Part shown: positions 552 to 48,224 of the stretch, in pieces
How positions within the stretch are numbered: position 1 is the stretch's first letter
Layout of the letters: the number at the start of each line of letters is the position of its first letter
NCBI GenBank assembly: GCA_001817425.1
Contig: MHII01000024.1
Span: 1-48,224 of the forward strand
Source of the DNA: Candidatus Buchananbacteria bacterium RIFCSPHIGHO2_02_FULL_39_17
Lineage (GTDB): Bacteria > Patescibacteriota > Patescibacteriia > Buchananbacterales > UBA6539
DNA: 48,224 bases
Reading direction: 5' to 3'
Position numbers and translations under genes: made by a program
The notes under the pieces: model-generated
Databases searched by the model: none
Told to the model about the DNA's origin: nothing
The model's input: the letters and a program-made list of their open reading frames with translations, nothing else

Positions 552-1820
552 ATGTCTAAAACGAAATTTAACCAAAAACAATTTTTAATCTATCAGCAAT
601 ATCAGCGGATTCATTTTTTTCTTTTTATCGTTTCTCTGGTGGTGTTTTTAATCGTTTTTTTGGTGATGAGCACGATTTTTCTGGAAACCACCAAGGCAAC
701 CAGTATTTTGCTTTCCCTTGCCATTTCTAATCCCAGTGAAACCTCGGTGACGACGCAAGAGAGCACAACCATTACTAGCGGTGGCGGTTTAGCGCTGCTT
801 CGGGCGCCAAGTTTAGCGAAAGAGCTAGCTCTTCAGCCAATGCCGCCTTCGCCAGCCGAATCAACCGGGGCAATCGCGCCCGTGAAAGTCTCAATTAACC
901 TTTTAAACCAAAGCGGTAATATTATTGAGGGCGGCAGTGCCTCTAATTATTCACTCCAGTCAATTGTGCCGCAGATCAGCAATAGCCGGCCGGTTTTCAG
1001 CGGGCAAGTTGATTTGCCCTATGCTTTTATTTTTTTAGAAATTCATTCAGGGCCAGTTAACGCGATTACTACCAGTTTCAATGCAGATGCTAACGGTTTC
1101 TGGTCTTATCAGCCGTCCCAGCCGCTTGCCGCTGGTTCTCACTTGATGTATTTGACGGTTTTTGACCCAACGGGCGAGGCAAAATTAGCGGCGGTTGATT
1201 ATCAATTTGAAGTTTTGTCAACTGAAGAAACAACCAAAGTTGCCACGGAAATCAAGCCAGGGCAAAGCAAAAAAATTACCGCTAAGCCATCGTTAGTTGA
1301 TTCGGGTCAAGCCCTTTTTGACGTGCGGGTTAAGCTAACAGGTTCGATACCTCACGAAATTCAGCCCGGCGATGACTTTTACGCCCAAATCTATCTGACG
1401 AATGTTGGCGAAACCGGGAAGTTAGTTGATGTAATCGTTAAATATCAAATTGTTGATGAAAAACAAAAGATAATTTTTGAGCAAGGTGAGACTTTGGCGG
1501 TTAGCACCCAAGCCTCATTTCTAAAAACCTTTTCCACCAAACCAAATCTTTCCCCGGGTAATTATTCTTTGGCGGTCAGCGTTGATTATGATCACGTTCA
1601 AGCGGTTTCCGTTGAGAAATTTGCGGTTAAGGGCGAGCCGGTCTTAATTATGCCGGGCCGGACCAAAGTTAATATTTCCGCTGTTGTCCAAATCCTTGCC
1701 TTAATTTTAATTATCAGCTCCTTAATCGCTTATTTTGAATATAAACAAGTGGAATCTTTAAGGCGAGTCATTCATCAAGTGACGGAAAAAGATTTGAAAA
1801 AAGAAGGTTTAATTTCTTAA
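552..1820 (+). CDS. Membrane-anchored protein with extracellular Ig-like region and two terminal TM segments
   Basis: 422-aa ORF, N-terminal hydrophobic segment, bacterial Ig-like stretch (VFSGQVDLPYAFIFLEI...GFWSYQPSQPLAAGSHLMYLTVFDPTG), C-terminal TM then a basic tail. Confidence 0.75.
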   Translation: MSKTKFNQKQFLIYQQYQRIHFFLFIVSLVVFLIVFLVMSTIFLETTKATSILLSLAISNPSETSVTTQESTTITSGGGLALLRAPSLAKELALQPMPPSPAESTGAIAPVKVSINLLNQSGNIIEGGSASNYSLQSIVPQISNSRPVFSGQVDLPYAFIFLEIHSGPVNAITTSFNADANGFWSYQPSQPLAAGSHLMYLTVFDPTGEAKLAAVDYQFEVLSTEETTKVATEIKPGQSKKITAKPSLVDSGQALFDVRVKLTGSIPHEIQPGDDFYAQIYLTNVGETGKLVDVIVKYQIVDEKQKIIFEQGETLAVSTQASFLKTFSTKPNLSPGNYSLAVSVDYDHVQAVSVEKFAVKGEPVLIMPGRTKVNISAVVQILALILIISSLIAYFEYKQVESLRRVIHQVTEKDLKKEGLIS

Positions 1821-1875
1821 ACGCGAATTTGAAAAGTTTTTTAAACCATTAAATAATCCAAAATTGGTTAAGCCT

Positions 1876-2037
1876 GTCATTGCGAGCGATCCCAAGCGAA
1901 GTCGAGGGAGAGCGAAGCAATCTCCAGAGATTGCCGCATCGTCCCGTCGCTCGCGAGCGACGGGACTCCTCACAATGACAATGTATTAGTGTCATTGCGA
2001 TCCCGATTTTACATCGGGAGAAGCAATCTCGTTTGAG
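1876..2037. repeat. Dispersed palindromic repeats (tcattgcgag...gaagcaatctc type), two adjacent copies
   Basis: gtcattgcgagcgatccc...gcgaagcaatctcc followed by gtcattgcgatcccg...gggagaagcaatctcg; internal hairpin cccgtcgctcgcgagcgacggg. Confidence 0.75.
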
Positions 2038-2068
2038 ATATTTCTTTACTAAAAATTAATTAAAAAAT

Positions 2069-2392
2069 ATGCCTGAAAGTATTATTTACGTCAATACTCT
2101 AATCACTACCCTAATCTTTGATCTGATTAGGTTAATTTTAGCCATTATCATTGTTATTTTGGGGCTGCGGATTGTCTGGCGGGTAGAAAAAAAATTGGAT
2201 TTATTTTTTAAGTTGATAACCTTTGCTTTTATTTTGATAGTTGGGCGCCAATTAATTAGGCTTTTTATCAATTTAGAAATATTTTCATTTGCCGGCTGGA
2301 TGAACTGGTTAGACATTATCCCGAGCTTTATTATCCTCATTGCTTTTTTGGTGATGGATGGGGTAATTACAAAATTGGATCGGGAAAAATGA
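2069..2392 (+). CDS. Small multi-TM hypothetical membrane protein
   Basis: 107-aa ORF with three hydrophobic stretches, followed by a terminator. Confidence 0.65.
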   Translation: MPESIIYVNTLITTLIFDLIRLILAIIIVILGLRIVWRVEKKLDLFFKLITFAFILIVGRQLIRLFINLEIFSFAGWMNWLDIIPSFIILIAFLVMDGVITKLDREK

Positions 2393-2420
2393 ATTTGATT
2401 TTTTAATTGATACAGTGATA

Positions 2421-2450
2421 AAAAAACCGAGATGGCAATCTCGGTTTTTT
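2421..2450. terminator. Bidirectional intrinsic terminator
   Basis: aaaaaaccgagatggcaatctcggtttttt: ccgagat/atctcgg stem with A- and T-tracts. Confidence 0.85.
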
Positions 2451-2452
2451 AC

Positions 2453-2704
2453 TTCCTTACCGGAAACCCCGTGCGAGGTTTCCCGAGTACGGGGATGAAT
2501 GGGCAAAATCCGATCCAAGGATTTTGTAAGTTAGCGCGAGCTCAATTTAGACTGTCATCCTGAATTTATTTCAGGATCCTTCATTGGGATGCCGAAACAA
2601 GTTCGGCATGACAATAGCGAGCGAGTAGCGAAAGCGTCAGGAAACCCCGCATAAAAAAAGCCACCCCGAAGGATGGCTTTTTGAGTGCGGGGAGGACGTC
2701 ATTA
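2453..2704. repeat. Composite dispersed repeat, copy 1
   Basis: ttccttaccggaaaccccgtgcgaggtttcccgag...gagtgcggggaggacgtcatta; second copy in the same orientation at 5247-5477. Contains a tgtcatcctgaa...catgaca hairpin and an extra terminator-like hairpin. Confidence 0.9.
2654..2682. terminator. Terminator-like hairpin within repeat copy 1
   Basis: aaaaagcca...tggcttttt. Confidence 0.65.
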
Positions 2705-2813
2705 AATAGAATTAATAAGTAATTTATTTAAAGCTAAACTTAGGCTTTAAATCACTATTATCGTTCCGTGAGACGAGGAGGTTTGGGGGCAATATTGAGA
2801 CCATCTTCTTTTT

Positions 2814-2936
2814 GTCGTCCCGAGCGACCCAGCCGTTCGCCCAGTCGTTCGCGAACGGCTGGGGAGTCGAGGGATCTCAACAAGCTTATTAATTATTATG
2901 AGATTTCTCCACTCGCTACGCTCAGTCGAAACGACA
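2814..2936. repeat. Palindromic dispersed repeat (gtcgtcccgagcga...gtcgagggatctc / gagatttctccactcgctacgctcagtcgaaacgac)
   Basis: Ends are inverted; internal hairpin ccagccgttcg...cgaacggctgg. A related, shorter copy lies at 28183-28275. Confidence 0.75.
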
Positions 2937-2982
2937 AATAAAAAAGAAAAATTAGATTGACCAAGGTGACGTAAAGAGATAA

Positions 2983-5151
2983 TTATTTATTTTCAATCGC
3001 TTTTTGGTAAAGCTGGTTTAATTCGTCTAACATGTTTTGGTAATCGGCATTATTCGGAGAACGTTTGACGATAGAGGCTAAAAAATCAATCGTGGCTTTT
3101 AAATCTTTAGAGTCGCGATAAGCCGATAAAAGTTTAGCGACATTTTCCGGCTGGTAAACCGGAAAACCAAGGGCTAAAGTTTTTTCCAAAGACTGGTAAG
3201 CCAGATCCGCCTGACGGCTTAAAATATAGGCAATGGCTAAATTCCAATGAGCCTCGGCGAATTTCGGATTTAAGTCAATCGCTTTTTGGAAATAAGCAAT
3301 GCCTTCATCAAACTTGGCTTGCGACATTTTAATCCGGCCAAGCAGAGTCAAAGTTTGATAGCGCTTAGGCGAAATGGCTAGGGCCTTTTGGCTGATTTCT
3401 TCGGCGGCGATTAAATAATTGGGATTTAATTGGTTGGTCGCTAAATAAAGCTCGCCTAACAAAAGATAATTTTGAATTTCATAGGGCGTGGTGCTGATAT
3501 TTTTTTTCATTTCATTAATGGCAAAATTAATTAAGGGAAGAGTCTCTTGGTTAATCCCGCTTAAATTGACCCGATCTCGGGTGGCCTGAACTAAAATAAA
3601 CCGCAATTCCGATTGGGCTGGGTTGGAATAATTAAACGCTTTGACAAAGTCATTTTTTATTAAGATTGGGTTAGTTTTATCTTTAGTCACGGCGGTAACG
3701 GTGTAATGATTGGCCAAGGCCGGCCTGACATTAAACCAATAACCCAGACTGCCAAAGATGATCAGCGCTACCATCAATAAAATGATATGCCAAGAACGCA
3801 ACTGATTTTTCCCTAAGGTTTCTAATTTTTCATTTTTTTCAAAATTTGGCCGGGTTTGGATAAAAGCTAAGGTCAGAAAAAATAATAAGTAAGAATTAAG
3901 CGTGTCAAAAACAAAAATATTTTGAGCTAAATAAGTCAAAATTAAAGTGGTCAAAATCAGGTTTGTCTTAAATTCTAATTTTTTTTCCCAGATTTTTTTG
4001 ACGGCAAAAATAATTATTAAAAGGTAGGTAATTAGGCCAACTAAGCCGGTGGTCACGCCAACCTCAACAATGACATTATGGGCGCGATCGTACCAGGGCT
4101 GGGAGCCGATGTCGCGCGCGAGGGCGGGATTAAAATGCTGGTTAAAGGCGGCGTTAAAATTTTCCCAACCCCAGCCGAAAATTGGCCGAGCTAAAAAGGC
4201 TTGGCCGCCGACTTGCCAAACCAACAAGCGGTTTTGGGTGGTGACGTCAGTTGGCGAAATATTAATGAGCCGGTTGACGGTTGTTAGATTTTGCGCCCAG
4301 GGCTGGGACCGATTAAGGTAGAGATAAAAAAAAGTCATTGCCATGAAAATTAGCAAAACGGCAGCACTAATTTTTAGGGCAATTTTTTTTGTTTTCAAAA
4401 AAGCGCTGAAGAGGATAAATAAGCCGCCAAAAATTAAGGCAATCACGGCGCCGCGGGTTTGGGTTTGCCAGATAATCAATAAATCAATAATCATCAGGCC
4501 AGCGTAAAGAATTTTTTGACCTTTAATTTGAGTTTGGAAAAAAAGATAAGCGGCAAGGAAAATGATAAAAATCAGGTAAGCGGCTAAAAAACTGGGATTG
4601 CCAATCGCGCCGCCCAGCCGTTCACCGGCGGTTTTTAGGGCGGGGGATAAATTAAATAATTGGGCCAGAGCATAGAGGGTTTGGAAAAAACTGGAAATTA
4701 AAACGACGTTTAAAAGCTGTTGCCACTCGGCTTTGGTTTTAAAGATGCCAATTAAGATAATAAAAAAGGCAAGATAATGAAGCCAAGTCAGGATGCCTTC
4801 AGTTCTTTCAATTGAACTCCAGAAGCTGCGATAAAAATTAACCCCAAACACGGAAGAGATAATCATCATTAAGACAAAAGTCGAGAGCAGCCAAGTGAGA
4901 ATGGCGCGCTTGGGCCTAAATTTTGGGTTGAGGGCTAACCGAAGAATATACCCAATGAGGCAAAATTCAATTATTAATCGAAAAATCGCGGTTCGCGGGA
5001 AAACCAAGGGGAATAAAAAATTCGGGTTAACGTATAGCGGCAAAAATAAAATAATAAAAACTCCAGTTTTAATAAACTGGATTAATAGATTTTCTAAATT
5101 AAATTTTTGGTTTTTAGTTCGCCCGTTGGCGAATTGAGATAGGGCAGTCAT
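2983..5151 (-). CDS. O-antigen ligase/polymerase family (Wzy/WaaL-like) membrane protein with C-terminal TPR repeats
   Basis: 722-aa ORF; many TM helices, GNPSFLAAYL and QTQTRGAVIAL motifs, periplasmic WGWENFNAAFNQHF segment, then TPR-like NPKFAEAHWNLAIAYILSRQADLAYQSLEKTLALG. Confidence 0.9.
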   Translation of the reverse strand: MTALSQFANGRTKNQKFNLENLLIQFIKTGVFIILFLPLYVNPNFLFPLVFPRTAIFRLIIEFCLIGYILRLALNPKFRPKRAILTWLLSTFVLMMIISSVFGVNFYRSFWSSIERTEGILTWLHYLAFFIILIGIFKTKAEWQQLLNVVLISSFFQTLYALAQLFNLSPALKTAGERLGGAIGNPSFLAAYLIFIIFLAAYLFFQTQIKGQKILYAGLMIIDLLIIWQTQTRGAVIALIFGGLFILFSAFLKTKKIALKISAAVLLIFMAMTFFYLYLNRSQPWAQNLTTVNRLINISPTDVTTQNRLLVWQVGGQAFLARPIFGWGWENFNAAFNQHFNPALARDIGSQPWYDRAHNVIVEVGVTTGLVGLITYLLIIIFAVKKIWEKKLEFKTNLILTTLILTYLAQNIFVFDTLNSYLLFFLTLAFIQTRPNFEKNEKLETLGKNQLRSWHIILLMVALIIFGSLGYWFNVRPALANHYTVTAVTKDKTNPILIKNDFVKAFNYSNPAQSELRFILVQATRDRVNLSGINQETLPLINFAINEMKKNISTTPYEIQNYLLLGELYLATNQLNPNYLIAAEEISQKALAISPKRYQTLTLLGRIKMSQAKFDEGIAYFQKAIDLNPKFAEAHWNLAIAYILSRQADLAYQSLEKTLALGFPVYQPENVAKLLSAYRDSKDLKATIDFLASIVKRSPNNADYQNMLDELNQLYQKAIENK

Positions 5152-21500: not shown

Positions 21501-22259
21501 GATGTTATTGCCAAAGGATCTCAATCTGGCGCTACTTTAGCGGCTGGTTCCAAAACCATTAACAATGCGAGCGGCAACGCCATGATTTTGTTCCGCAGCG
21601 CACCAGTGATTACGCCCAATGACCAATTACCAACTGGTGAGAAAGTAGTGGGCGGCACCTTACAGAATAATACTGAAACTGCCCTTTATCGCTTTAAGGT
21701 GACAGCCGGTAGTACCGGTGATATTGGTCTTGCCAGCGTGGCTTTCTTGGTTAACACCACCACGGCGACTATTACCGGTATGAAGATCTACGAAAGTGGA
21801 GTTCAAGTCGCAGTTGATTTATTTGGTGCTCATCAGACTGACAATGCGAACAACGATGCCCATGTCACCATCTTCCTTTTTGATGATGGAGACGATACCT
21901 TGATTCAAAATGGGGTAGTAAGTATGGGTACCTCTAAACTCTATGAGTTAAGAGGTCAGCTCTATTGTACTGGTGCTGCGTGTACCGAAGTTAAAGTTGG
22001 TGGTACTGCTGGTTTCCAGTTGTTAGGTGATCCATTCCAAATGACTACTTTGCCCAATTCTGTTTCCAGAACAGCGGCAACCATTGCTTTTGATCGAAGT
22101 ATCCAATGGACCGACTTCTGGCGCACGCCGGTTTTGAAGAACTCTTCAACTACGGCAACCCAGACCGAACAGTGGTCAAATGGTTATCTGATTAAAGACT
22201 CAACTGGTAAAGACTTAGCGGCAACTTCAACTGGTGTCACTTGGTCATTTAGTCGATAA
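18540..22259 (+). CDS. S-layer-like secreted surface protein
   Basis: 1239 aa, signal peptide, N-terminal module CRAVYYLGADGKRYVFPNEKTYKTWY...ATYRPGVKLVKITTDPKVYAVASNGSLRWV, many beta-rich TxTVKGNI-type repeats. Confidence 0.85.
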   Translation: MIKRLLTYAVAITTVAWSVGLLAMPLAVGAAVSGDLIKLQCVAGAGVNDPCRAVYYLGADGKRYVFPNEKTYKTWYSNFSGVTTVSSTEMSSYSIGGNATYRPGVKLVKITTDPKVYAVASNGSLRWVTTAAIAESLYGSSWASMVEDVPDAFFVNYTVGSDVNAAADYNKTTETSNATTINDDKNLGGGGASTGTGLTVALASDTPATNYVVGNSIHNKFTKINFTASADGDIVIDQIVARRGGTVASDAAFSGIVLLDGTSLQQTEDAKTLNSDHQAIFNKDLTIPAGTTKSYYLGANMASSLSSYAGQIPSLDLFSVKLSGSAAVIGTLPIVGNYMQLDGTITIGTLTLANGGNNPSASTQRVGVTDYIVSGVKLTANGTEDFKVSRIRFNQGGTAGDSDVSNLDLLIDDAVVATISASSGKYATFDLSANPITIIKGKSKTFDLRLDVSGGSSRTVRFDIKDETDIKAVGQLYGANVKVAAGSGATADADPFWTAVVTTVSEGSLRIGPATLVAANIADDSSQVVLGKFEFEAKGEPAVITRLPISFDLATSSASTAGNVTHADLTNITVYDPNGKIVAGPIDTAHNNWVAAGDRKEQVSATSTDTITIPVGINIYTIKGDVKADFETDDTITAHIKPNQMTVKGDNTGITITPTPSSEQSSAIMTVKAANLAVSMSSSPVAQSVVGGTQNWTFANVILDAANSGEDIKVTTVKVAIHTTTANPSQTSGWTLYDGQTALAVTNDPSSDTSTKTTAGNSATATFTFATPLIMTKGTTKTLTVKGNITTSATSGTVSAGIPDKVGADHITAKGNASGADAGITMSVSDGQNQTLTDAGTLTLTKDSTSPDASLIPANSVTGVTVTVLNASARYENVNLEKFYLTAGAPGINGIVGAVVGANDAGWKTVKQVHIYKGNELVKSVTPTSSATSSPTVLVDLTNSPIVVPKDSSVLITVKVDTQDANYELGSVATSGIGSKIKINAAGDVIAKGSQSGATLAAGSKTINNASGNAMILFRSAPVITPNDQLPTGEKVVGGTLQNNTETALYRFKVTAGSTGDIGLASVAFLVNTTTATITGMKIYESGVQVAVDLFGAHQTDNANNDAHVTIFLFDDGDDTLIQNGVVSMGTSKLYELRGQLYCTGAACTEVKVGGTAGFQLLGDPFQMTTLPNSVSRTAATIAFDRSIQWTDFWRTPVLKNSSTTATQTEQWSNGYLIKDSTGKDLAATSTGVTWSFSR

Positions 22260-22272
22260 CTCTAGAATCTCT

Positions 22273-22316
22273 AAAAACCAAAAAGTCCCTGCCGAAAGCG
22301 GGGACTTTTGGTTTTG
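22273..22316 (+). terminator. Intrinsic terminator after the S-layer-like gene
   Basis: aaaaaccaaaaagtccctgccgaaagcggggacttttggtttt, long stem. Confidence 0.85.
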
Positions 22317-22502
22317 GTAATTTATTGATTTTATTAGTTAGAAGTGTTAGAATAATTATTAGTAAAATCAAATTGAAAATTATTTATAATTCAAAAGTCA
22401 AAAATCAAAATTACAATTCAAAATTTAAAATTAATAAAATCCCGCGAAAGCGGGATACCAGACTTTTGACTTTTGAAATTTGACTTTTGACTTTTTAAAA
22501 AT

Positions 22503-24209: not shown

Positions 24210-24890
24210 ATGAAGAACAAAAAAATTTCAACAATTATTTCAATTATCGTTTTATTGGTTGTTGTTGGATTACTGGGTTATTATTTCTGGCCAAAAACAC
24301 AACCTCAAGACCAGCTTGAGAAATTTTTTGAATTTAAAATTGTCAAAACCGATTTAACTGACTGGGAAAAAGACAAATTTACCAAAGAATTTATGGCGAC
24401 AAAAGATGCTTTACGATTAGACCCCGAAGGGTTTCAAATTTGGTTGAATTTAGGCTGGGTAAAAAAAGCCGTTGGCGATTATCGTGGCGCCGAAGAAATT
24501 TGGCTTTATGTTAATAAAACTTGGCCTTTAAATAGTGTCTCCTTTAATAATTTAGGTGATTTATATGCTAATTTTATGAATGAATATGATAAAGCCGAAG
24601 CGATGTTTAAAGTGGCGATTCAAAATTCCAAAGGTGAGGCCATTAACTGGATTTATGTCAGAAGTCTTTTTGATCTTTATGTTAAGACTAATCAGTTGGA
24701 TAAGGCCGAGAATATGCTGATAGAGAGTTTAACGAGTCAGCCCGATAATTATGATTTTAATATTTTATTAGCTGGTTTTTATCGGGATTTTGGTCAAAAA
24801 GAAAAAGCGCTGCAGTATTACCAAAAGGCGTTAGTGATTAAACCAGATAATGAAGTGGTGAGAAAAGAGATTGAAGCGCTTAGAAAATAA
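24210..24890 (+). CDS. Membrane-anchored TPR protein
   Basis: N-terminal TM then TPR motifs (LGDLYANFMNEYDKAEAMFKVAIQNSK; LLAGFYRDFGQKEKALQYYQKALVIKPDN). Confidence 0.85.
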   Translation: MKNKKISTIISIIVLLVVVGLLGYYFWPKTQPQDQLEKFFEFKIVKTDLTDWEKDKFTKEFMATKDALRLDPEGFQIWLNLGWVKKAVGDYRGAEEIWLYVNKTWPLNSVSFNNLGDLYANFMNEYDKAEAMFKVAIQNSKGEAINWIYVRSLFDLYVKTNQLDKAENMLIESLTSQPDNYDFNILLAGFYRDFGQKEKALQYYQKALVIKPDNEVVRKEIEALRK

Positions 24891-25009
24891 TTTGATTTAA
24901 CTGTAAGTCAAAATTCAAAAGGCAAAAGTCAAAATTACAAGTTAAAAGTAAAAAGTTAATTGTTGCCAAAGGCAACTACTAAACTTTTGACTTTTAACTT
25001 TTCATTTCT

Positions 25010-26710
25010 ATGCTTTCAAAAAAGCAAACTTGGTCTTTATTAATCTCAATTTTAATTCTAGCGGCTTTTTTACGTTTATATAATTTAACTTCAGCCGACG
25101 TTATTACTGATGAAGCTCTAATTGCTTTTCGCGCCATCGGCTATATTGATTTTTTTGTTTCGCCTTATCAAACCACTCCTTATGAGTGGTTTTCTGATAC
25201 TCCGGCTTGGGTGAAACTTTCTTTTCATGACCATCCGCCTTTAATTTTTTTAATTGAAAATTTATTTTTTAAAGTTTTTGGCGTCAATGTTTTTAGTCTG
25301 CGCCTGCCTTTTGTTTTAGCCGGCATGGCATCGGTCATTTTAATTTATTTGATTGGTTCTCAACTATTTAATCAAAAAAGCGGTTTATTAGCCGCTTTAT
25401 TTTTAGCGATTTCTCCCTACCACCTCTGGATTAGCCGAGTTGGTCTTCAGGAATCAATGGTTATGGCTTTAATGCTTTTGGCTTTTTATTTTTTTATTTT
25501 ATCTTTAGGAAATCAAAAGCATTGGCGTTGGGGGATTTTTTTAGGTTTAGCCATGTTATCAAAATATACGGCAATAATTTTGTTGCCGATTTTTTTAGTT
25601 TATCTTCTAATTTCTAATCGTAAGATATTATTTGATAAAAAATTTTGGCTGGCGATAATTTTAGTTATCCTTATTTTTAGTCCGGTTTTAATTTATAATT
25701 TTAAACTTTATCAGGCGCGCGGTCATTTTGATTTGCAATTATCTTTTTTATTCGGTCAAAAAGTAAATGAATGGCAATTTTTGCCGGGTAAAATTCAGGC
25801 CGGCAGTTTATTTGATCGAATTATAAATTTAATTCCAGCCATGTTTCGCGGTCTATTGGCGCCGATGTTTTTACTTTTTGCCATTAGTCTATTAAGCGTT
25901 GTCTACCAATTAATTAAAGAGACTCTTCAACTCGCGCCGTCTTGGCAATCCGGTGGCGCTCGCTCAGAGCCACTAATTGCTCCGCCATTAGTGGTTTTAG
26001 CCATTATTTTTCATATCCTACTCTTTATGTTAATTGGTCCGCTGAGTCGGTTTGTGGTGATGATTATTCCTTTTTCTCTGCTTTTGATTGTTTGGTTTTT
26101 ACCGCAACTGCCAAAGAAAATAATGATGACTTTGGTAATTTTAATTACTTTTAGCGAGATTTTTTTCAGTTATAATACTTTGTATGCTTTTACGCCGATT
26201 GGTCAAAAAGACTTTACTTATGCTTATTTTAGAAACGACAGCGTTAATTGGGGTTATAATCAATTAGACGACTATTTAACCGAAATTTTTAAAAATAAAA
26301 GACCGGCTGTTAGTTTTACCGGCCGTTATCCTTTTTTAGAAAAAATAAAACAGCAAGCTACAGCCACGGCAAAAAAGGAAAATAAACAGCCAGCGACCAT
26401 TTTATTGATTTATGATGAGAATATGTATGATTTAGCTACACTCTGGCTTTTTCATCGGCGTTTAATCTATGAAGGCTGGCCGATTATTACCGCTGATGCT
26501 TACCTGGGCCAAAGCCAAGATTATTGGCGCCGTCAAGGCATCACTGAATTTTATTTTGTCAAAATTATTGATCCAGCAATTCTTCAGCGGCCAGAGGCGG
26601 AAAGAAGCCAAGCGGCTCAAAATTTAAGTGAACAATTAAATAGTTCACCGAAGTCTATCATAAAACGGCTGGATAGCCGGTCGGTTTTCGCCGTTTATTA
26701 TTGGCAGTAA
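25010..26710 (+). CDS. GT39/PMT-like (GT-C) membrane glycosyltransferase, paralogue of 22503-24206
   Basis: ITDEALIAFRAIGYIDFF, LSFHDHPPLIFLIENLFFKVFGVNVFSLRLP; co-linear similarity to the upstream paralogue. Confidence 0.88.
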   Translation: MLSKKQTWSLLISILILAAFLRLYNLTSADVITDEALIAFRAIGYIDFFVSPYQTTPYEWFSDTPAWVKLSFHDHPPLIFLIENLFFKVFGVNVFSLRLPFVLAGMASVILIYLIGSQLFNQKSGLLAALFLAISPYHLWISRVGLQESMVMALMLLAFYFFILSLGNQKHWRWGIFLGLAMLSKYTAIILLPIFLVYLLISNRKILFDKKFWLAIILVILIFSPVLIYNFKLYQARGHFDLQLSFLFGQKVNEWQFLPGKIQAGSLFDRIINLIPAMFRGLLAPMFLLFAISLLSVVYQLIKETLQLAPSWQSGGARSEPLIAPPLVVLAIIFHILLFMLIGPLSRFVVMIIPFSLLLIVWFLPQLPKKIMMTLVILITFSEIFFSYNTLYAFTPIGQKDFTYAYFRNDSVNWGYNQLDDYLTEIFKNKRPAVSFTGRYPFLEKIKQQATATAKKENKQPATILLIYDENMYDLATLWLFHRRLIYEGWPIITADAYLGQSQDYWRRQGITEFYFVKIIDPAILQRPEAERSQAAQNLSEQLNSSPKSIIKRLDSRSVFAVYYWQ

Positions 26711-40811: not shown

Positions 40812-41978
40812 ATGAAAATTTTTTATATTGCTAACGTCAGATTGCCAACTGAAAAGGCCCATGGCCGGCAAATTATGAAAATGAGCGAAAGTTTAGCTAA
40901 GGCGGGAGAGGATTTGGAATTAATTATTCCCAGTCGGCGGAATCCTAATTTTAAAAATATCAACCCCTTTGATTATTATCAGATTAATCAAACTTTTAAA
41001 ATTAAAAGATTGAAAAGTTTTGACCCGGTTTTTATTTTAGGCTGGCCAGCTGGTTTATATATAAAATTTCAAACAATTTTTTTTGTCTTAAGCTTGACGA
41101 TTTACTTAATTTTTAAAAAGGACACGAGAAAATCTGTTTTTTATACTCGCGATGAAATTTTATTGCCCTTGCTTTCAATATTTAACAAAAAAATTGTTTG
41201 GGAAGTTCATGCCCTGCCAAAAAAGATGAAATTTTTAAAGCCATTCTTGAGTCGAGTAGAAAAATTAGTTGTTTTGACCCAGAGTATTAAAGATCGTTTA
41301 ATCGTTTTAGGTTTGGCAGAAAATAAGATTTTGGTTTCACCTGACGCGGTTGATTTGGAAATTTTTGGTATTAATCTAGACAAATCTCAAGCCAGAGAGC
41401 AATGGCAATTACCCAAAGATAAAATTATTTTAGGTTATACTGGCACTTATCAGACTAAGGGGATGGATAAAGGTTTAAGTGATATTTTTAAAGCGTTAAA
41501 GATTCTTAAAACAAAAAGAAGCGATTTATTTTTTGTCGCCTTGGGCGGCCTACCAAATGAAATTATTAAATACCAAAAGCTAGCCGAGGGTTTCGGTGTT
41601 TCGGATATCATCAGTTTACTTTCCCCAGTTGATCAAAAAAAATTAGCGGTTTTTCAGCAAGCTTGCGACATTTTACTGATGCCTTTTCCCGAGACAACCC
41701 ATTTTTCTTTTTATATGTCGCCGCTTAAAATGTTTGAATATTTGGCCGCCGCCAGGCCGATTATTGCCTCTGACTTGCCAAGTATCCGTGAAATATTGGA
41801 TAATAAAGTTGCTTTATTGGTTAAGCCAGGCGATGCCAATGACTTGGCGGAAAAAATCGAATCATTGGCTAATCAGCCAAAATTAGCCGCTGATATAGCC
41901 GTTAGCGCTAAAGCGATTTCAGTTCATTATAGCTGGGAAGAGCGGGCGAAAAAAATTTATAATTTCTTATGTGGTTAG
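40812..41978 (+). CDS. GT4-family glycosyltransferase
   Basis: IANVRLPTEKAHGRQIMKMSESLA, GYTGTYQTKGMDKGLSDIFKAL, SPLKMFEYLAAARPIIASDLPSIREIL. Confidence 0.9.
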   Translation: MKIFYIANVRLPTEKAHGRQIMKMSESLAKAGEDLELIIPSRRNPNFKNINPFDYYQINQTFKIKRLKSFDPVFILGWPAGLYIKFQTIFFVLSLTIYLIFKKDTRKSVFYTRDEILLPLLSIFNKKIVWEVHALPKKMKFLKPFLSRVEKLVVLTQSIKDRLIVLGLAENKILVSPDAVDLEIFGINLDKSQAREQWQLPKDKIILGYTGTYQTKGMDKGLSDIFKALKILKTKRSDLFFVALGGLPNEIIKYQKLAEGFGVSDIISLLSPVDQKKLAVFQQACDILLMPFPETTHFSFYMSPLKMFEYLAAARPIIASDLPSIREILDNKVALLVKPGDANDLAEKIESLANQPKLAADIAVSAKAISVHYSWEERAKKIYNFLCG

Positions 41979-44842
41979 AAAAAATATTTTTAAAAATTAA
42001 GTTTCGGTTATTTAAACGTCACCGTTTATTTTCAATTACCTTTTTATTATTAGTTTTAATTTTTTTTACCGCAGTGCCGTTATTTTCGTCAAAACTAGGC
42101 AGCGCGGAAAAACGCGCCCAATTGCTTCGGTCTTATCCGGTTTTGACTAAGGTTCTTCCTTTGTATTGGAAAATAAGAAAAACCACTGACATTGTATATT
42201 TCCCTTATTTCTTTCGGAAAAATCAACTGCCCACTTATGAGTTAATTATTTCAGAAAAAGATCAGAAAGAACTTGACGATAGCTTGCCTAAAGATTTTAT
42301 GAATGTAGTTTACAGCAATAAAGTCTGGGTGCCGGCGAAATTTATCTATGACGGCAAAACTTACGACGTTAAGGTCAGATATCGGGGGGACAATGCCGTG
42401 CACTGGAATGCACCGAAAAAATCATATTTAGTGAACTTTAAAAGTGATGACTTATTTAAAGGCATTGAAAGATTAAGTTTTATTATTATTGATGATCGTC
42501 ATTTTGTTTTGGAGCAATTGAATAATAAGCGGGCAAAAAAATTAAGTCTATTCGTGCCCGACAGCTGGTTTGGTAATCTAAAAATTAACGGTAAAAAGCA
42601 TGGGCTTTATTTTATCATTGAAAGCTGGAGTCAAGAGATGCTGGCCAAAGCAGAACTGCCGGATGAAACAAATTTTTACAGTGATTTTGGCGAAGAAGAT
42701 TTAATTCCTGAAGTTTTGGCTTTACGCAACTATGGCATTTGGGATAATTTAGATCGTTGGACCAAATTAGTTAATGACGGCAAATTAAATTTTCAGCATT
42801 ATACTGAAGTCAAACAACTTTTAACCCTTTTAAATCAAACCAGCGATCAAGATTTTTACCAACAAATTTTTAATTTAATTGACCAAAATAATTTTTATGC
42901 TTGGCAAATCCATCAGGAACTGATTCATTCCAACCATCAGACCGATGATGTCAGGCTTTATTTTAGCAATACCTCGGGAAAATTTTATTTTATTCCTTGG
43001 GATTTAGGCAATACTGACCCAAGTTTTGAAATTGAACTTTATGGCCGGTTGGCAAAAAGGATATTTTCTAACCCGGTTTATCTTTCTGAAAAAAATAAAA
43101 GACTCTATCAATACCTGTCAGATGAAAAGAATTTAGAAGATGATTTAGTTTTCTATGATCAAGCCGTTAAAGAAATCAAAGTCGCTTTATACCAGGATCG
43201 GTTAAAAATTTATACTAATCATTGGGCTAATAATTATATCGCCAATAAAAGAAAAGAAGTAATTGGAGCGATTGATAAACTGAAAGAAAAATTTAACCAA
43301 AGTTTAGTTTTTGTTGAAATTGGGGTAGCTAATGATAATGCCCGGCAGTTTTTAGGTAAAAATTTATTAGCAACTTTTGATATTTACTTAAAAAGCTATT
43401 CAGATTTGTATTTTAAAAAACCGATTTTTGAGTTTAACCGCGGCTTTAATTTAACCGATTATCAATTATATTTTGAGAATAGTGCTAATGAGATTTTAGA
43501 TAATGGCGATAAATTAGTTAATAACTATCAAGATATCATTTTATCTACCAAAAGAGATTTTAATGAATTAGCGGAAGGCGGAAAATTAATTTTGACGAAA
43601 TATCGTTTTTATTTGGTGAGCCAAAAGACGGCCAGCACTGATTTTGCCAATAATCTCAAAACCGCTAATACTGAAATTGAAAATGCGATGAGTGGTAAAT
43701 TAATTCCTCAAGAGGAAATCAGCGCTAAATTATATAATGAAAAATCATTTAAAGATTTTTCGGCGATTAATAACATTAATGCTTTTGAGAGAAATAATCC
43801 TTTTTTCCAAATTGGTCGGACAAATAAACAGATTATTTTAGCTTCAGGCAATTACCAATTTAATAAGACGGTTATTGTTCCCGCCGGATTTATTCTAAAG
43901 ATAATGGCGCCAGCCACTTTGCAAATGGCTCCGGGCGTTTCTCTGATTAGCTATAGTCCGGTGCAGCTTTTAGGCACCGCCAGCCAACCGATTAATTTCG
44001 TCGGGCAGAATTATAATCAGCCCTGGGGAGTTTTTGCGGTCATTAATGCCGCCAATAAAAGTTTGATTCAATTCAGTAATTTTTCCGGCGGTAAAGATGA
44101 TTATATTAATGGAATTTATTTTTCCGGGATGGTGTCAATTTATCACTCTGATGTTAGGATTGAGAATTCTTTTTTCAGTCGCGCTTTTGCTGACGATTCA
44201 ATAAACGTTAAAAATGCCGTTAGCGAAATTGTTAGCAGTGACTTCAGGAATAATTCGGCTGATGCTATTGATTATGACTTTATTAAAGAGGGGATGGTCG
44301 CCGACAGCCGATTTTTTAATAATGGCAACGATAGCATTGATTTAAGCGGTTCAACGGTTTTAATCAGCGGTAATTTTATTGAAAAGTCAGGGGATAAGTG
44401 TGTCAGTATTGGCGAAAAAAGCCTTAAGCCAATAATTTATAATAACGTTTTGAATGGGTGTGATATTGGCGTGGCAATTAAAGATTTATCGGAAGCTTTA
44501 ATTGTTAATAATGTCATTATTAATAACCGTAGTGCGCTTGAGGCAAATCAAAAAAAACCGGTTTTTGGCGGCGGTTTCGCCAAAGTTTATAACAGCATCA
44601 TTTGGAATAACCAAAATGATATCGTGACTGATCCTTTGTCCAAGATTGAAATTTTTAATAGCAATGTCAAAAAGCAATCAACTGAAAATAAAAATTTTGA
44701 TCATGATCCAGCTTTTAATCCAGACTTTACAATTAATCAAAAAAATGCTAATCTGTTATTTACTAATGGCGGCAATGCTGAAATTTTAAATCAAATTTTA
44801 GGCTTTGACCAAAAAACGGCGCCAGTTGGCTTAAATCGTTAA
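41969..44842 (+). CDS. CotH-kinase-family protein fused to a C-terminal right-handed parallel beta-helix
   Basis: VKVRYRGDNAVHWNAPKKSYLVNFK, HGLYFIIESWSQEML, GKFYFIPWDLGNTDPSF; C-terminal Pbl-type repeats (SRFFNNGNDSIDLSGSTVLISGNFIEKSGDKCVSI...). Confidence 0.87.
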   Translation: MWLEKIFLKIKFRLFKRHRLFSITFLLLVLIFFTAVPLFSSKLGSAEKRAQLLRSYPVLTKVLPLYWKIRKTTDIVYFPYFFRKNQLPTYELIISEKDQKELDDSLPKDFMNVVYSNKVWVPAKFIYDGKTYDVKVRYRGDNAVHWNAPKKSYLVNFKSDDLFKGIERLSFIIIDDRHFVLEQLNNKRAKKLSLFVPDSWFGNLKINGKKHGLYFIIESWSQEMLAKAELPDETNFYSDFGEEDLIPEVLALRNYGIWDNLDRWTKLVNDGKLNFQHYTEVKQLLTLLNQTSDQDFYQQIFNLIDQNNFYAWQIHQELIHSNHQTDDVRLYFSNTSGKFYFIPWDLGNTDPSFEIELYGRLAKRIFSNPVYLSEKNKRLYQYLSDEKNLEDDLVFYDQAVKEIKVALYQDRLKIYTNHWANNYIANKRKEVIGAIDKLKEKFNQSLVFVEIGVANDNARQFLGKNLLATFDIYLKSYSDLYFKKPIFEFNRGFNLTDYQLYFENSANEILDNGDKLVNNYQDIILSTKRDFNELAEGGKLILTKYRFYLVSQKTASTDFANNLKTANTEIENAMSGKLIPQEEISAKLYNEKSFKDFSAINNINAFERNNPFFQIGRTNKQIILASGNYQFNKTVIVPAGFILKIMAPATLQMAPGVSLISYSPVQLLGTASQPINFVGQNYNQPWGVFAVINAANKSLIQFSNFSGGKDDYINGIYFSGMVSIYHSDVRIENSFFSRAFADDSINVKNAVSEIVSSDFRNNSADAIDYDFIKEGMVADSRFFNNGNDSIDLSGSTVLISGNFIEKSGDKCVSIGEKSLKPIIYNNVLNGCDIGVAIKDLSEALIVNNVIINNRSALEANQKKPVFGGGFAKVYNSIIWNNQNDIVTDPLSKIEIFNSNVKKQSTENKNFDHDPAFNPDFTINQKNANLLFTNGGNAEILNQILGFDQKTAPVGLNR

Positions 44843-44851
44843 GAATTAATA

Positions 44852-45604
44852 ATGCCAAAATTAAAGCTTCATTTTCAAAGGTTTGAATTTAAATACTATT
44901 TGCCAAAAAGTAAAGCGGATAAATTAATTCCCGCTCTCTTGAATTATTTGGATTGGGATCCTTATATTAAAGAATTAAATACTGATTTCTATCAAGTCAA
45001 TAGTTTATATTTCGATAATCAAACTTTTGGTTGTTATTGGGACAAGGAAAGCGGACTTTCTGACCGAAAAAAACTGCGCTTAAGATATTACAATCAATTG
45101 TCAAATTTGAATTCCCCAGTTTTTTTGGAAATTAAAAGAAAAAAAGACGCTTTAGTTATTAAAGACCGGATTTACCTGCAGGCGGCAAATTGCCTAAGCC
45201 ATAATTTAGACGAGTCGCTTTTTAAACTCCATCGCGCCCAGCCGGACAATGATTTTCTTAAAGAAATTATTTGGTTTAAGAAAAAAAATCTTCTGAAGCC
45301 TAAACTTTTTATTTCCTATAAACGTAAAGCTTTTGTCGGTAAGCTGGATAAAGGATTCAGGGTGACTTTTGATTATGACATTAAAACTCAATCACAAGAT
45401 GACTTTGCCAGTAAACAGAATAATCTGAAAGAGATTTATCCTGAAGGGGTCGTCTTGGAGTTAAAATATAATAATGTTTTACCCTTTTGGTTTCAGGAAA
45501 TTATTCAGAAGTATCAACTCCAGCGCTTGGCTTATTCAAAATATTGTAATTCACTTCGCCAAGTCCGGCCGTGGCTTGACGATAATAATTATTCACTAAC
45601 CTAA
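44852..45604 (+). CDS. VTC-domain (polyphosphate polymerase-like) protein
   Basis: RFEFKYYLPKSKADKL, YQVNSLYFDNQTFGCYWDKESGLSDRKKLRLRYY, FLEIKRKKDALVIKDRI, VVLELKYNNVLPFWFQEII. Confidence 0.88.
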   Translation: MPKLKLHFQRFEFKYYLPKSKADKLIPALLNYLDWDPYIKELNTDFYQVNSLYFDNQTFGCYWDKESGLSDRKKLRLRYYNQLSNLNSPVFLEIKRKKDALVIKDRIYLQAANCLSHNLDESLFKLHRAQPDNDFLKEIIWFKKKNLLKPKLFISYKRKAFVGKLDKGFRVTFDYDIKTQSQDDFASKQNNLKEIYPEGVVLELKYNNVLPFWFQEIIQKYQLQRLAYSKYCNSLRQVRPWLDDNNYSLT

Positions 45605-45610
45605 TAATTT

Positions 45611-46297
45611 ATGTTTGATAGTTTATTTAATTTGACGCCAAGCGCGGTGTCTTTGAATTTTTTAACCATTGCCATCGTGCTGATTTTATCCTTTGTTTTA
45701 TCGTTAGTCATCGCTTGGGTTTACAAGAGTACTCATAAAGGCATTTCTTATTCCCAGTCATTTGTTTTTACTTTAATCTTAATTGGTGTTTTAATTGCTG
45801 TTATTATGATGGTCGTGGGTAATAGTTTAGCCATTGCTTTCGGCGCTTTTGGGGCATTTTCTTTGATTAGATTTAGAACGGCCATTAAAGACACTCGGGA
45901 TTTAGCCTTTGTTTTATTGGTCGTAACTATTGGGTTAGCGGTGGGGACACGAAATTATTTGATTGCGATTTTGACCACCATTTTTGCCGGAGCAATTATT
46001 TTTGGCTTAACGAAAATCAATTTTGGTTCAATTCGAAAATACGATTATCTCTTAAATTTTTCGGCATTTTCCGATAAATTTTCGGCGGAAAATTTACGTT
46101 CAGTTTTCGCTGAATTTTTGAAATACGACAATTTATTAAATGTGACCGCCAAGGAAGGCGGCAAGGTCCTGACTTATACTTTTAATATTAAATTTATCAA
46201 AGCCGCTGAAATTGAAAAACTGATTACCAAAATCAGCCAGCTGGAAGGCATTTTTGATATTGATGTGATTAGCGCGAAAAATGATATTGAATATTAA
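45611..46297 (+). CDS. DUF4956-family membrane protein
   Basis: GNSLAIAFGAFGAFSLIRFRTAIKDTRDLAFVLLVVTIGLAVGTRNYLIAIL. Confidence 0.88.
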   Translation: MFDSLFNLTPSAVSLNFLTIAIVLILSFVLSLVIAWVYKSTHKGISYSQSFVFTLILIGVLIAVIMMVVGNSLAIAFGAFGAFSLIRFRTAIKDTRDLAFVLLVVTIGLAVGTRNYLIAILTTIFAGAIIFGLTKINFGSIRKYDYLLNFSAFSDKFSAENLRSVFAEFLKYDNLLNVTAKEGGKVLTYTFNIKFIKAAEIEKLITKISQLEGIFDIDVISAKNDIEY

Positions 46298-46303
46298 AAT
46301 CAA

Positions 46304-47089
46304 ATGAAATTTCTAAAGATTTTATATTTTTATTTTGTTATTTTTTTAGACAGGATTTGGTCAAAACCGGCCATTCCTGTTTTGTTATATCATTCCATTA
46401 GTGAGGATCAAAGCCGCTTGGCGGTTAGCCCAAAAAATTTTAAAAGGCAAATTGCTTATTTGGCGAGTAAAGGATATGAGTGCATCGATCCACTGAGGCT
46501 TAAATTAGCTTTAGAAAAAAAAGTCTTACCCAAAAAAAAGATTTTAATTACTTTTGATGATGGTTTTAGAGATAATTATTTAGTGGTTTATCCAATTTTA
46601 AAAAAATATAATTTTTTTGCCACCATTTTTCTAGCCACGAATTTTATCGGCAAAAAGGCGAGTTTTGCCAAAAATTTAATTGATCAAAAACGGCCAATGT
46701 TAAATCGGGAGGAAATAGAGAAAATGTCTCAAGCCGGATTTTTTTTCGCCAATCATTTCGGTTCCCATCTGCCCCTGACGGAATTAAATAAAGATCAAAT
46801 CACCACTGAATATCATCAGGCTAAAGATTTTATCCAGTCTTTTCCCGGTCGCAATTTTTTATTTAATGTCATTGCCTATCCAAAAAATAGAAATAACTCC
46901 TCAATCATCAATCAACTTGATCATCTTGGCGTTCAACTGGCTTTTGCTGGCAGGGGAGAGGTGATTAGTAAAAATAGCCAAATTTTGGATTTACCTAGAA
47001 TTGAAATTTTTAACACTGACTCACTGCTTAAACTGAGGGCAAAACTAACTCCTTATTATCGCAATTTTAAAAAAAATTATGATTTTTAA
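46304..47089 (+). CDS. Polysaccharide deacetylase (NodB-like)
   Basis: PVLLYHSISED, ILITFDDGFRDNYLVVYPILKKYNFFATIFLATNFIG, HFGSH metal-ligand motif. Confidence 0.92.
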   Translation: MKFLKILYFYFVIFLDRIWSKPAIPVLLYHSISEDQSRLAVSPKNFKRQIAYLASKGYECIDPLRLKLALEKKVLPKKKILITFDDGFRDNYLVVYPILKKYNFFATIFLATNFIGKKASFAKNLIDQKRPMLNREEIEKMSQAGFFFANHFGSHLPLTELNKDQITTEYHQAKDFIQSFPGRNFLFNVIAYPKNRNNSSIINQLDHLGVQLAFAGRGEVISKNSQILDLPRIEIFNTDSLLKLRAKLTPYYRNFKKNYDF

Positions 47090-47822
47090 AAAAAATGTTT
47101 TATGGTTTAAAACCATCAGATACGTCCTTGAACCTTGGCCGGATTGGGAAAAATTTAAAAAAAATTACGCGGCAATTTATCTGGTCAGCTATGAAAAAAA
47201 AGACTTACCTGGTTTTTCTGTTAAAATCAAGGAAACGCCGATTATTTATTTAAATAAAAAAATCGAAGAAGTTTTTAGTAGTTTTAATGAGACAACGAGA
47301 AATGAAATCAGGCGAACTTTTGACGATAAAATTCCCGGCTTAAAAATTGTTGTTAATGATCAGAATTTATCGGCGAATTACCAGTTAAGTAAAATTTTTG
47401 AATATCAGCAGGGGAGAGTGCCAGAAAAAATCGCGATGTATCGCGGCTGCCGCTTATTTGCCGCTTATTTAAACGGCGAAATAATTTCCAGTGTCATTTG
47501 TTATGATAATAATCAAATTTTGCGCGCTAAAGCGATTTGTTCCAAACGATTGCTAATTAAAGACAAAGAAACTTATAAAATTATTTCCTATGCCACGCGC
47601 CGCTTGATTTATGAAGCTTGTCAGTGGGGGATTAAAAATAATTATCAGTGGATTGATCTAGGCTCAATTAATTTTGCCAAGGAAAATTTAGCCCAGTTTA
47701 AATTAAGTTTTACCAAGGATTTAATCCAAGAATACACTTATACTTATAAAAGCCAATGGTTTGAGCTTTTGGCCAGTGGCGTCTTTCTTAAAAAAGCCAT
47801 AAAAAAATTACTAAAATTTTAG
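47079..47822 (+). CDS. FemAB/GNAT-like acyltransferase
   Basis: ETTRNEIRRTF, SVICYDNNQILRAKAICS...WIDLGSINFAKENLAQFKLSFTKDLIQEYTYTY. Confidence 0.65.
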   Translation: MIFKKNVLWFKTIRYVLEPWPDWEKFKKNYAAIYLVSYEKKDLPGFSVKIKETPIIYLNKKIEEVFSSFNETTRNEIRRTFDDKIPGLKIVVNDQNLSANYQLSKIFEYQQGRVPEKIAMYRGCRLFAAYLNGEIISSVICYDNNQILRAKAICSKRLLIKDKETYKIISYATRRLIYEACQWGIKNNYQWIDLGSINFAKENLAQFKLSFTKDLIQEYTYTYKSQWFELLASGVFLKKAIKKLLKF

Positions 47823-47826
47823 TTAT

Positions 47827-48052
47827 AAAAAAAGAGGCAGAAGCTTATTTCCCAAACGTCCCTGCGTTTCCGAACAGTATCTTTGAGAACCTTTTTTAGT
47901 AAAAGGGTTTTGCCGTTAATTCCATCAGTTTTCCCGATTATGCACTGCGTGGCAACGGGACGGGGATCTTGGTTTTTTACGCAGTTCTCCCGGTAATAAA
48001 ATCACAACTGACACGGCGATTTTTGCTTCTGCCTAAAAAGTTTTTCCCTCCT
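47827..48052 (-). ncRNA. Candidate stand-alone structured ncRNA of unknown family
   Basis: Terminal stem AGGCAGAAGC (47835-47844)/GCTTCTGCCT (48025-48034) with T-tract on the minus strand; nested stems gccgt/acggc, tcagtt/aactga, actgcgt/acgcagt; own promoter. Confidence 0.7.
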
Positions 48053-48058
48053 TAATTA

Positions 48059-48087
48059 ATTATAGATGATAATTTAAATTAAGGCAA
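48059..48087 (-). promoter_or_regulatory. Sigma70-like promoter for the ncRNA
   Basis: Minus strand TTGCCT-N17-TATAAT. Confidence 0.7.
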
Positions 48088-48123: not shown

Positions 48124-48159
48124 AATAAAAAAGCCCTTGAGCAATACTGCCAAGGGCTT
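48124..48159 (-). terminator. Intrinsic terminator of an upstream minus-strand gene
   Basis: aagcccttg...caagggctt with T-run on the minus strand. Confidence 0.75.
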
Positions 48160-48186
48160 AATCTGCATTAAAGAACTTTTTGTTCA

Positions 48187-48224
48187 TTATTTGGCGGTTG
48201 CTTGTTTGACTGCCAAAATCTCTG
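48187..48224 (-). CDS. C-terminus of a minus-strand CDS running off the window (…EILAVKQATAK*)
   Basis: Open frame ending in TAA just before the terminator at 48124-48159; too short to name. Confidence 0.35.
   Translation of the reverse strand, partial: EILAVKQATAK

Follow-up and report, generated by a model that had tools for sequence, protein, structure and literature searches.

A candidate orphan gene for a structured RNA, tail-to-tail with a FemX-like gene in a 1.14-Mb bacterial genome

Genomic context of the locus

The window, by which we mean the whole analyzed stretch of 48,224 bases, corresponds to bases 1-48224 of a contig of 85,331 bases (C24) in a genome of 1.14 Mb that is 96% complete. 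Toward its end it carries a run of genes (41969-47822) coding, in order, for CotH, a VTC domain, DUF4956, a polysaccharide deacetylase and a FemX-like protein; CotH, VTC and DUF4956 are also found together in G003, a genome of the same family. The last of these genes is termed FemX-like on the basis of a weak match to the FemX profile (E 0.015, far below its cut-off), and a protein search of our collection of genome contigs recovered no relatives of it. Its end is separated by 5 nt from the T tract of the candidate RNA, which lies tail-to-tail with it on the minus strand, and no terminator-like site was found downstream of it on the plus strand. Just upstream of the RNA locus there is an assembly gap of 47 N (contig positions 48225-48271). 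Beyond this gap the plus strand carries a short ORF with no Pfam match, followed by genes for an HTH_17 protein and an ABC transporter, the nearest gene thus being on the strand opposite to that of the candidate RNA. The features of the locus are as follows:

47079-47822, plus strand: convergent FemX-like gene (open reading frame)
47827-48052, minus strand: predicted transcript of about 225 nt, its start placed 7 nt after the -10 box
47827-47833, minus strand: T7 tract, one base (C) after stem P1
47835-47844, minus strand: 3' arm of P1, GCTTCTGCCT
47849-47889, minus strand: predicted hairpin P4, with an 8-bp stem, an inner CTG/CAG stem and a GNRA-type loop
47890-47906, minus strand: predicted hairpin P3, CCTTTTACTAAAAAAGG
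47912-48017, minus strand: predicted arm P2, a 12-pair stem (gccgt/acggc and gtcagtt/aactgat) opening into a three-way junction
47926-47936, minus strand: second copy of a direct repeat, CGGGAAAACTG
47982-47992, minus strand: first copy of the direct repeat, CGGGAGAACTG
48025-48034, minus strand: 5' arm of P1, AGGCAGAAGC
48059-48087, minus strand: sigma-70-type promoter, TTGCCT-N17-TATAAT
48127-48158, minus strand: terminator-like hairpin with T6 of an upstream transcript, whose gene would be hidden by the assembly gap

A promoter, a closing stem and a T tract arranged as a unit

A preliminary description of this DNA, made from its letters, had proposed an orphan gene for a structured RNA, equipped with a promoter of its own and a terminal stem followed by a T tract. 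We recovered the promoter on the minus strand (48087-48059), where 10 of the 12 consensus positions match and the spacer is 17 nt. The terminal stem, P1, is likewise real at the level of sequence: its two arms are perfectly complementary over 10 bp, with pair probabilities of about 1.0 for 9 of the 10 pairs, and they are separated by 180 nt, after which come a single C and seven T residues. The T-tailed hairpin said to close the preceding minus-strand transcript is also present at 48158-48127. Further small hairpins precede it within 48127-48224 (z -2.6), and this segment may hold a second small RNA, hidden by the N gap.

In agreement with the preliminary description, the candidate has no convincing coding potential, the longest frame spanning 37 codons with no Pfam match. 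A stop-free frame at 47819-48001 (IIGKTDGINGKT...) bears a vague likeness to the P-loop of Mur ligases, but was set aside as it too has no Pfam match. We also rejected the 5' AAGGAGG as a Shine-Dalgarno site, because a start codon at a suitable distance is absent; GGAGG alone pairs with the probable 16S tail ACCTCCAAG. By sequence, the locus thus has the generic make-up of a structured bacterial sRNA gene, namely its own promoter, its own terminator and no ORF, its terminator being unusual in having a long loop. A short-loop terminator of the ordinary kind was not detected for the candidate RNA, and P1 probably also works as the terminator, the 180-nt loop of such an element being far from that of a classical intrinsic terminator.

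To gauge how often this arrangement arises by chance, we scanned for perfect 10-bp stems that have 120-260 nt between their arms and T6 after the second arm. This pattern occurred in 381 of 6000 dinucleotide-shuffled windows (6%), and in only 2 of the 6000 when a promoter with at least 10 of 12 matches was additionally required 5-50 nt upstream of the 5' arm. Among genomic sequences, the stem and T-run arrangement was seen once in the approximately 1.0 Mb scanned of the 1.14-Mb source genome, and was absent from 1.0 Mb of G002 and 0.48 Mb of G003, both of the same family.

Folding energy separates the candidate less clearly from its surroundings. The transcript has a z of -2.5, and a value at least as extreme was obtained for 56 of 480 stretches of the window (225 nt every 200 nt, both strands). 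A trimmed core reaches z -3.3, its limits having been chosen on the stem. Hence, folding energy by itself is weak evidence, being only mildly unusual, and the organization of promoter, stem and T-run is stronger evidence than the thermodynamics. The window's strongest folds by comparison with shuffles lie elsewhere, at 1801-3025, 22201-22425 and 24801-25025 (z -4.5 to -6.7, several on both strands), and may represent inverted repeats or strong terminators.

The opposite strand of the candidate folds equally well (z -2.7), and this raises the question of which strand is functional. The region could be a structured 3' UTR of the femX-like mRNA, serving its stability or end formation, with a fortuitous promoter on the minus strand. 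The slightly lower z on the plus strand, the failure to find a separate femX terminator and the closeness of the femX end all agree with such a 3' UTR. Nevertheless, it is on the minus strand that promoter and T tract are both rightly placed, and on the plus strand the second arm is followed by AAAAAG and by no T run; we accordingly regard a plus-strand element as improbable.

Composition and GGGA pattern

The candidate RNA stands out from its flanks in composition, with 43% GC (45% in the core) versus 31% in both flanks; the tmRNA of the same genome, at 44%, is similar to it. We also noted, after the fact, that it is rich in GGGA, with 5 copies in 225 nt against a shuffle mean of 1.3 (P 0.001), a number reached by just 1 of the 1280 real stretches taken from the window. 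These 5 are among 8 occurrences of GGA, and the direct repeat listed above is part of the GGGA-rich pattern. The densest other GGGA stretches in the genome scan were confined to one contig (C33, L191).

Predicted fold

The preferred predicted fold is a closed, multi-branched domain, in which P1 seals the ends and the interior is made up of P2 with its three-way junction, P3 and P4. This differs from the rod-like shape that had been suggested, since the predicted minimum is a multi-branched junction. Among the nested stems that had been listed, gccgt/acggc and tcagtt/aactga are retained with pair probabilities above 0.85, whereas the minimum-energy fold lacks actgcgt/acgcagt. Imposing this stem costs 1.8 kcal/mol and yields a nearly equal, rod-like alternative for P2, which still keeps P3 and P4. 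The two side hairpins fared similarly: the one formed by CCTTTTACTAAAAAAGG, which is single-copy in the genome, is predicted with a probability of 0.86-0.96, whereas aaacg-caggga-cgttt is not favored, that stretch falling in the 8-bp helix TTCTCAAA/GTTTGGGAA predicted under the GNRA-type loop of P4.

Comparison with known RNA families

None of 4227 Rfam families reached its threshold at the locus, and none was significant at permissive settings either. A resemblance to 6S RNA had been suggested, and there are indeed points in common: like 6S RNA (RF00013), the candidate is about 200 nt long, has its own promoter and joins its ends through a stem. However, 6S RNA is defined by a single-stranded central bubble between the closing stem and the terminal stem-loop (PMC4064990), and the predicted fold, with two side hairpins and a three-way junction in place of one rod, has no such bubble. 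The RF00013 model gave no match at the locus even at E<=10, and the candidate is not conserved. The same model found nothing in this genome and 34 relatives (35 genomes of the class), while controls matched. The slot for a 6S-like RNA that would bind RNA polymerase by mimicking an open promoter is therefore seemingly empty in this class, and the candidate could be imagined to fill it, given its length of 200-225 nt, its closing stem and the rod-like P2 alternative just above the minimum. Against this stand the missing model match, the side hairpins P3 and P4, which break the rod, and the expectation that an RNA with such a role would occur in relatives of the family, where none was found. Taken together, these points make a 6S-like role very unlikely.

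The housekeeping RNAs can be assessed in the same manner. RNase P RNA and tmRNA gave no match at the locus, and each was found on another contig of the genome. The SRP RNA models (RF00169 and RF01854) matched neither the locus nor anything elsewhere in this genome or its relatives (10 genomes searched with RF00169 and 35 with RF01854), which in principle leaves room for a diverged SRP RNA. The candidate, however, has no SRP apical motif (a GNAR loop followed by AAGCAG). Furthermore, Ffh gave no match in about 1.0 Mb of the source genome, and neither an Ffh/FtsY motif nor a significant Ffh tblastn match was detected in the nearly whole G002, while GrpE, S16 and other controls were found. As both the SRP protein and the 4.5S RNA have been reported as absent from Parcubacteria (PMC4508563), the SRP pathway seems to have been lost in this lineage, and a hidden SRP RNA at this locus is unlikely; that the candidate is a diverged housekeeping RNA of any of these three kinds is exceedingly improbable. 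The small genome and the missing SRP, as in the published Parcubacteria, fit a CPR-type bacterium.

The GGA-rich protein sponges of the CsrB/RsmZ type offer another comparison. The candidate shares with them an abundance of GGA, with eight copies, and a stable closed structure, but several of its GGA are predicted to be paired and not in hairpin loops, and there is no Rfam match. Their partner CsrA was not found by tblastn in about 1.0 Mb of the 1.14-Mb genome, so that the pair of features typical of such sponges, repeated GGA in loops and a CsrA partner, was not recovered despite the GGA enrichment. Finally, like convergent or antisense bacterial sRNAs, the candidate lies tail-to-tail with femX, and read-through would be complementary; it differs from them in being highly structured, with clamped ends and little free seed, and the overlap is only presumed.

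Homologue searches and synteny

The proposed orphan status was borne out by blastn against 143 relatives and against 383 class genomes, which returned short chance matches alone, with no extended match among those inspected; these and the other homologue searches covered one genome per species, with other species of the same genus not among them. A single-sequence covariance model gave weak matches and no homologue in the 143 relatives (35 of them searched again with laxer filters), and no homologue in 1.5 Mb of G002 (nearly whole) and G003 (about half). Neither blastn nor the covariance model detected a paralogue in the source genome, where the three best weak model matches fall inside open frames, for example a pilN-like one at C20:4149. 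The phage and plasmid collections had no match to the candidate, and an exact search with one 29-mer gave none in the collection of genome contigs. By comparison, plain blastn aligns the tmRNAs of this genome and of G003 at 71%. The lack of a detectable homologue implies that the candidate RNA is either lineage-specific or evolving fast.

As for synteny, the HTH-ABC gene pair is kept in both G002 and G003, but neither has the candidate RNA next to it, and in G003 CotH is the immediate neighbor of the ABC gene. Compared with G003, the source genome thus carries additional DNA here, comprising femX, the RNA and the short ORF. This bears on the explanation that there is no RNA gene at all, the locus being the diverged intergenic remains of a gene or mobile element, set in a variable island, where stem, promoter and T tract came together by chance. 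Such a relic would account for the extra DNA, for the lack of conservation in everything searched and for the unexceptional fold energy, and a stem with a T run alone is met in 6% of shuffles. Yet it sits poorly with the joint signal including the promoter in 2 of 6000 shuffles, with the GC island, with an arrangement unique in 2.5 Mb of real DNA and with the absence of any protein family in the frames tested. We consider it unlikely, though it deserves serious weight.

An orphan small RNA gene and its potential roles

The claim of an orphan structured RNA gene thus holds up: the locus has no Rfam match and no homologue in the genomes searched, and the joint occurrence of promoter, stem and T-run is far above chance. 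The statistics establish promoter, stem and T tract as a unit that is non-coding and belongs to no known family. We infer transcription, termination at P1 and a mode of action as set out below. The explanation that we favor, with some reserve, is an independently transcribed, lineage-restricted gene for a structured small regulatory RNA, convergent with the FemX-like gene.

Transcription would start near 48052 on the minus strand, and the body of the RNA would fold into a compact domain comprising P3, P4 and P2 with its three-way junction. During emergence of the 3' end, P1 would close this domain directly before the U tract and end transcription, and the same pairing would clamp both ends against nucleases. 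Regulatory action might then take one of two routes, in which the RNA either offers its GGGA-rich domain to a protein or pairs in antisense with read-through of the convergent femX-like transcript, which has no visible terminator; both routes are conjectural. That the ends are sealed and few bases stay single-stranded in the predicted fold speaks against a seed-pairing sRNA of the classic kind and in favor of binding of a protein or ligand. Since Hfq, like CsrA, was not found in about 1.0 Mb of the source genome, the partner would be another protein.

A bolder and rather unlikely extension is that this RNA is the founding member of a new class of CPR structured RNAs, i.e. a GGGA-repeat junction RNA with two nearly equal folds that binds a protein or ligand and evolves too fast for present searches. 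For the present, we regard the candidate as a credible orphan RNA gene, predicted at one locus in one species. Our literature search turned up no work on the small regulatory RNAs of such bacteria. If verified, the locus would provide a stand-alone structured RNA in a genome of about 1.1 Mb in which no 6S RNA, SRP RNA, CsrA or Hfq was detected, and would indicate that regulatory RNAs persist without their usual partners.

Among the neighbors, the promoter upstream of the small HTH_17 gene is surrounded in all three genomes by repeated TTGATACYT/TTGACACYT-like units (L003:2695-2740, L083:11230-11275 and L137:18670-18715), a pattern that would fit binding of the HTH protein to the promoter of its own gene.
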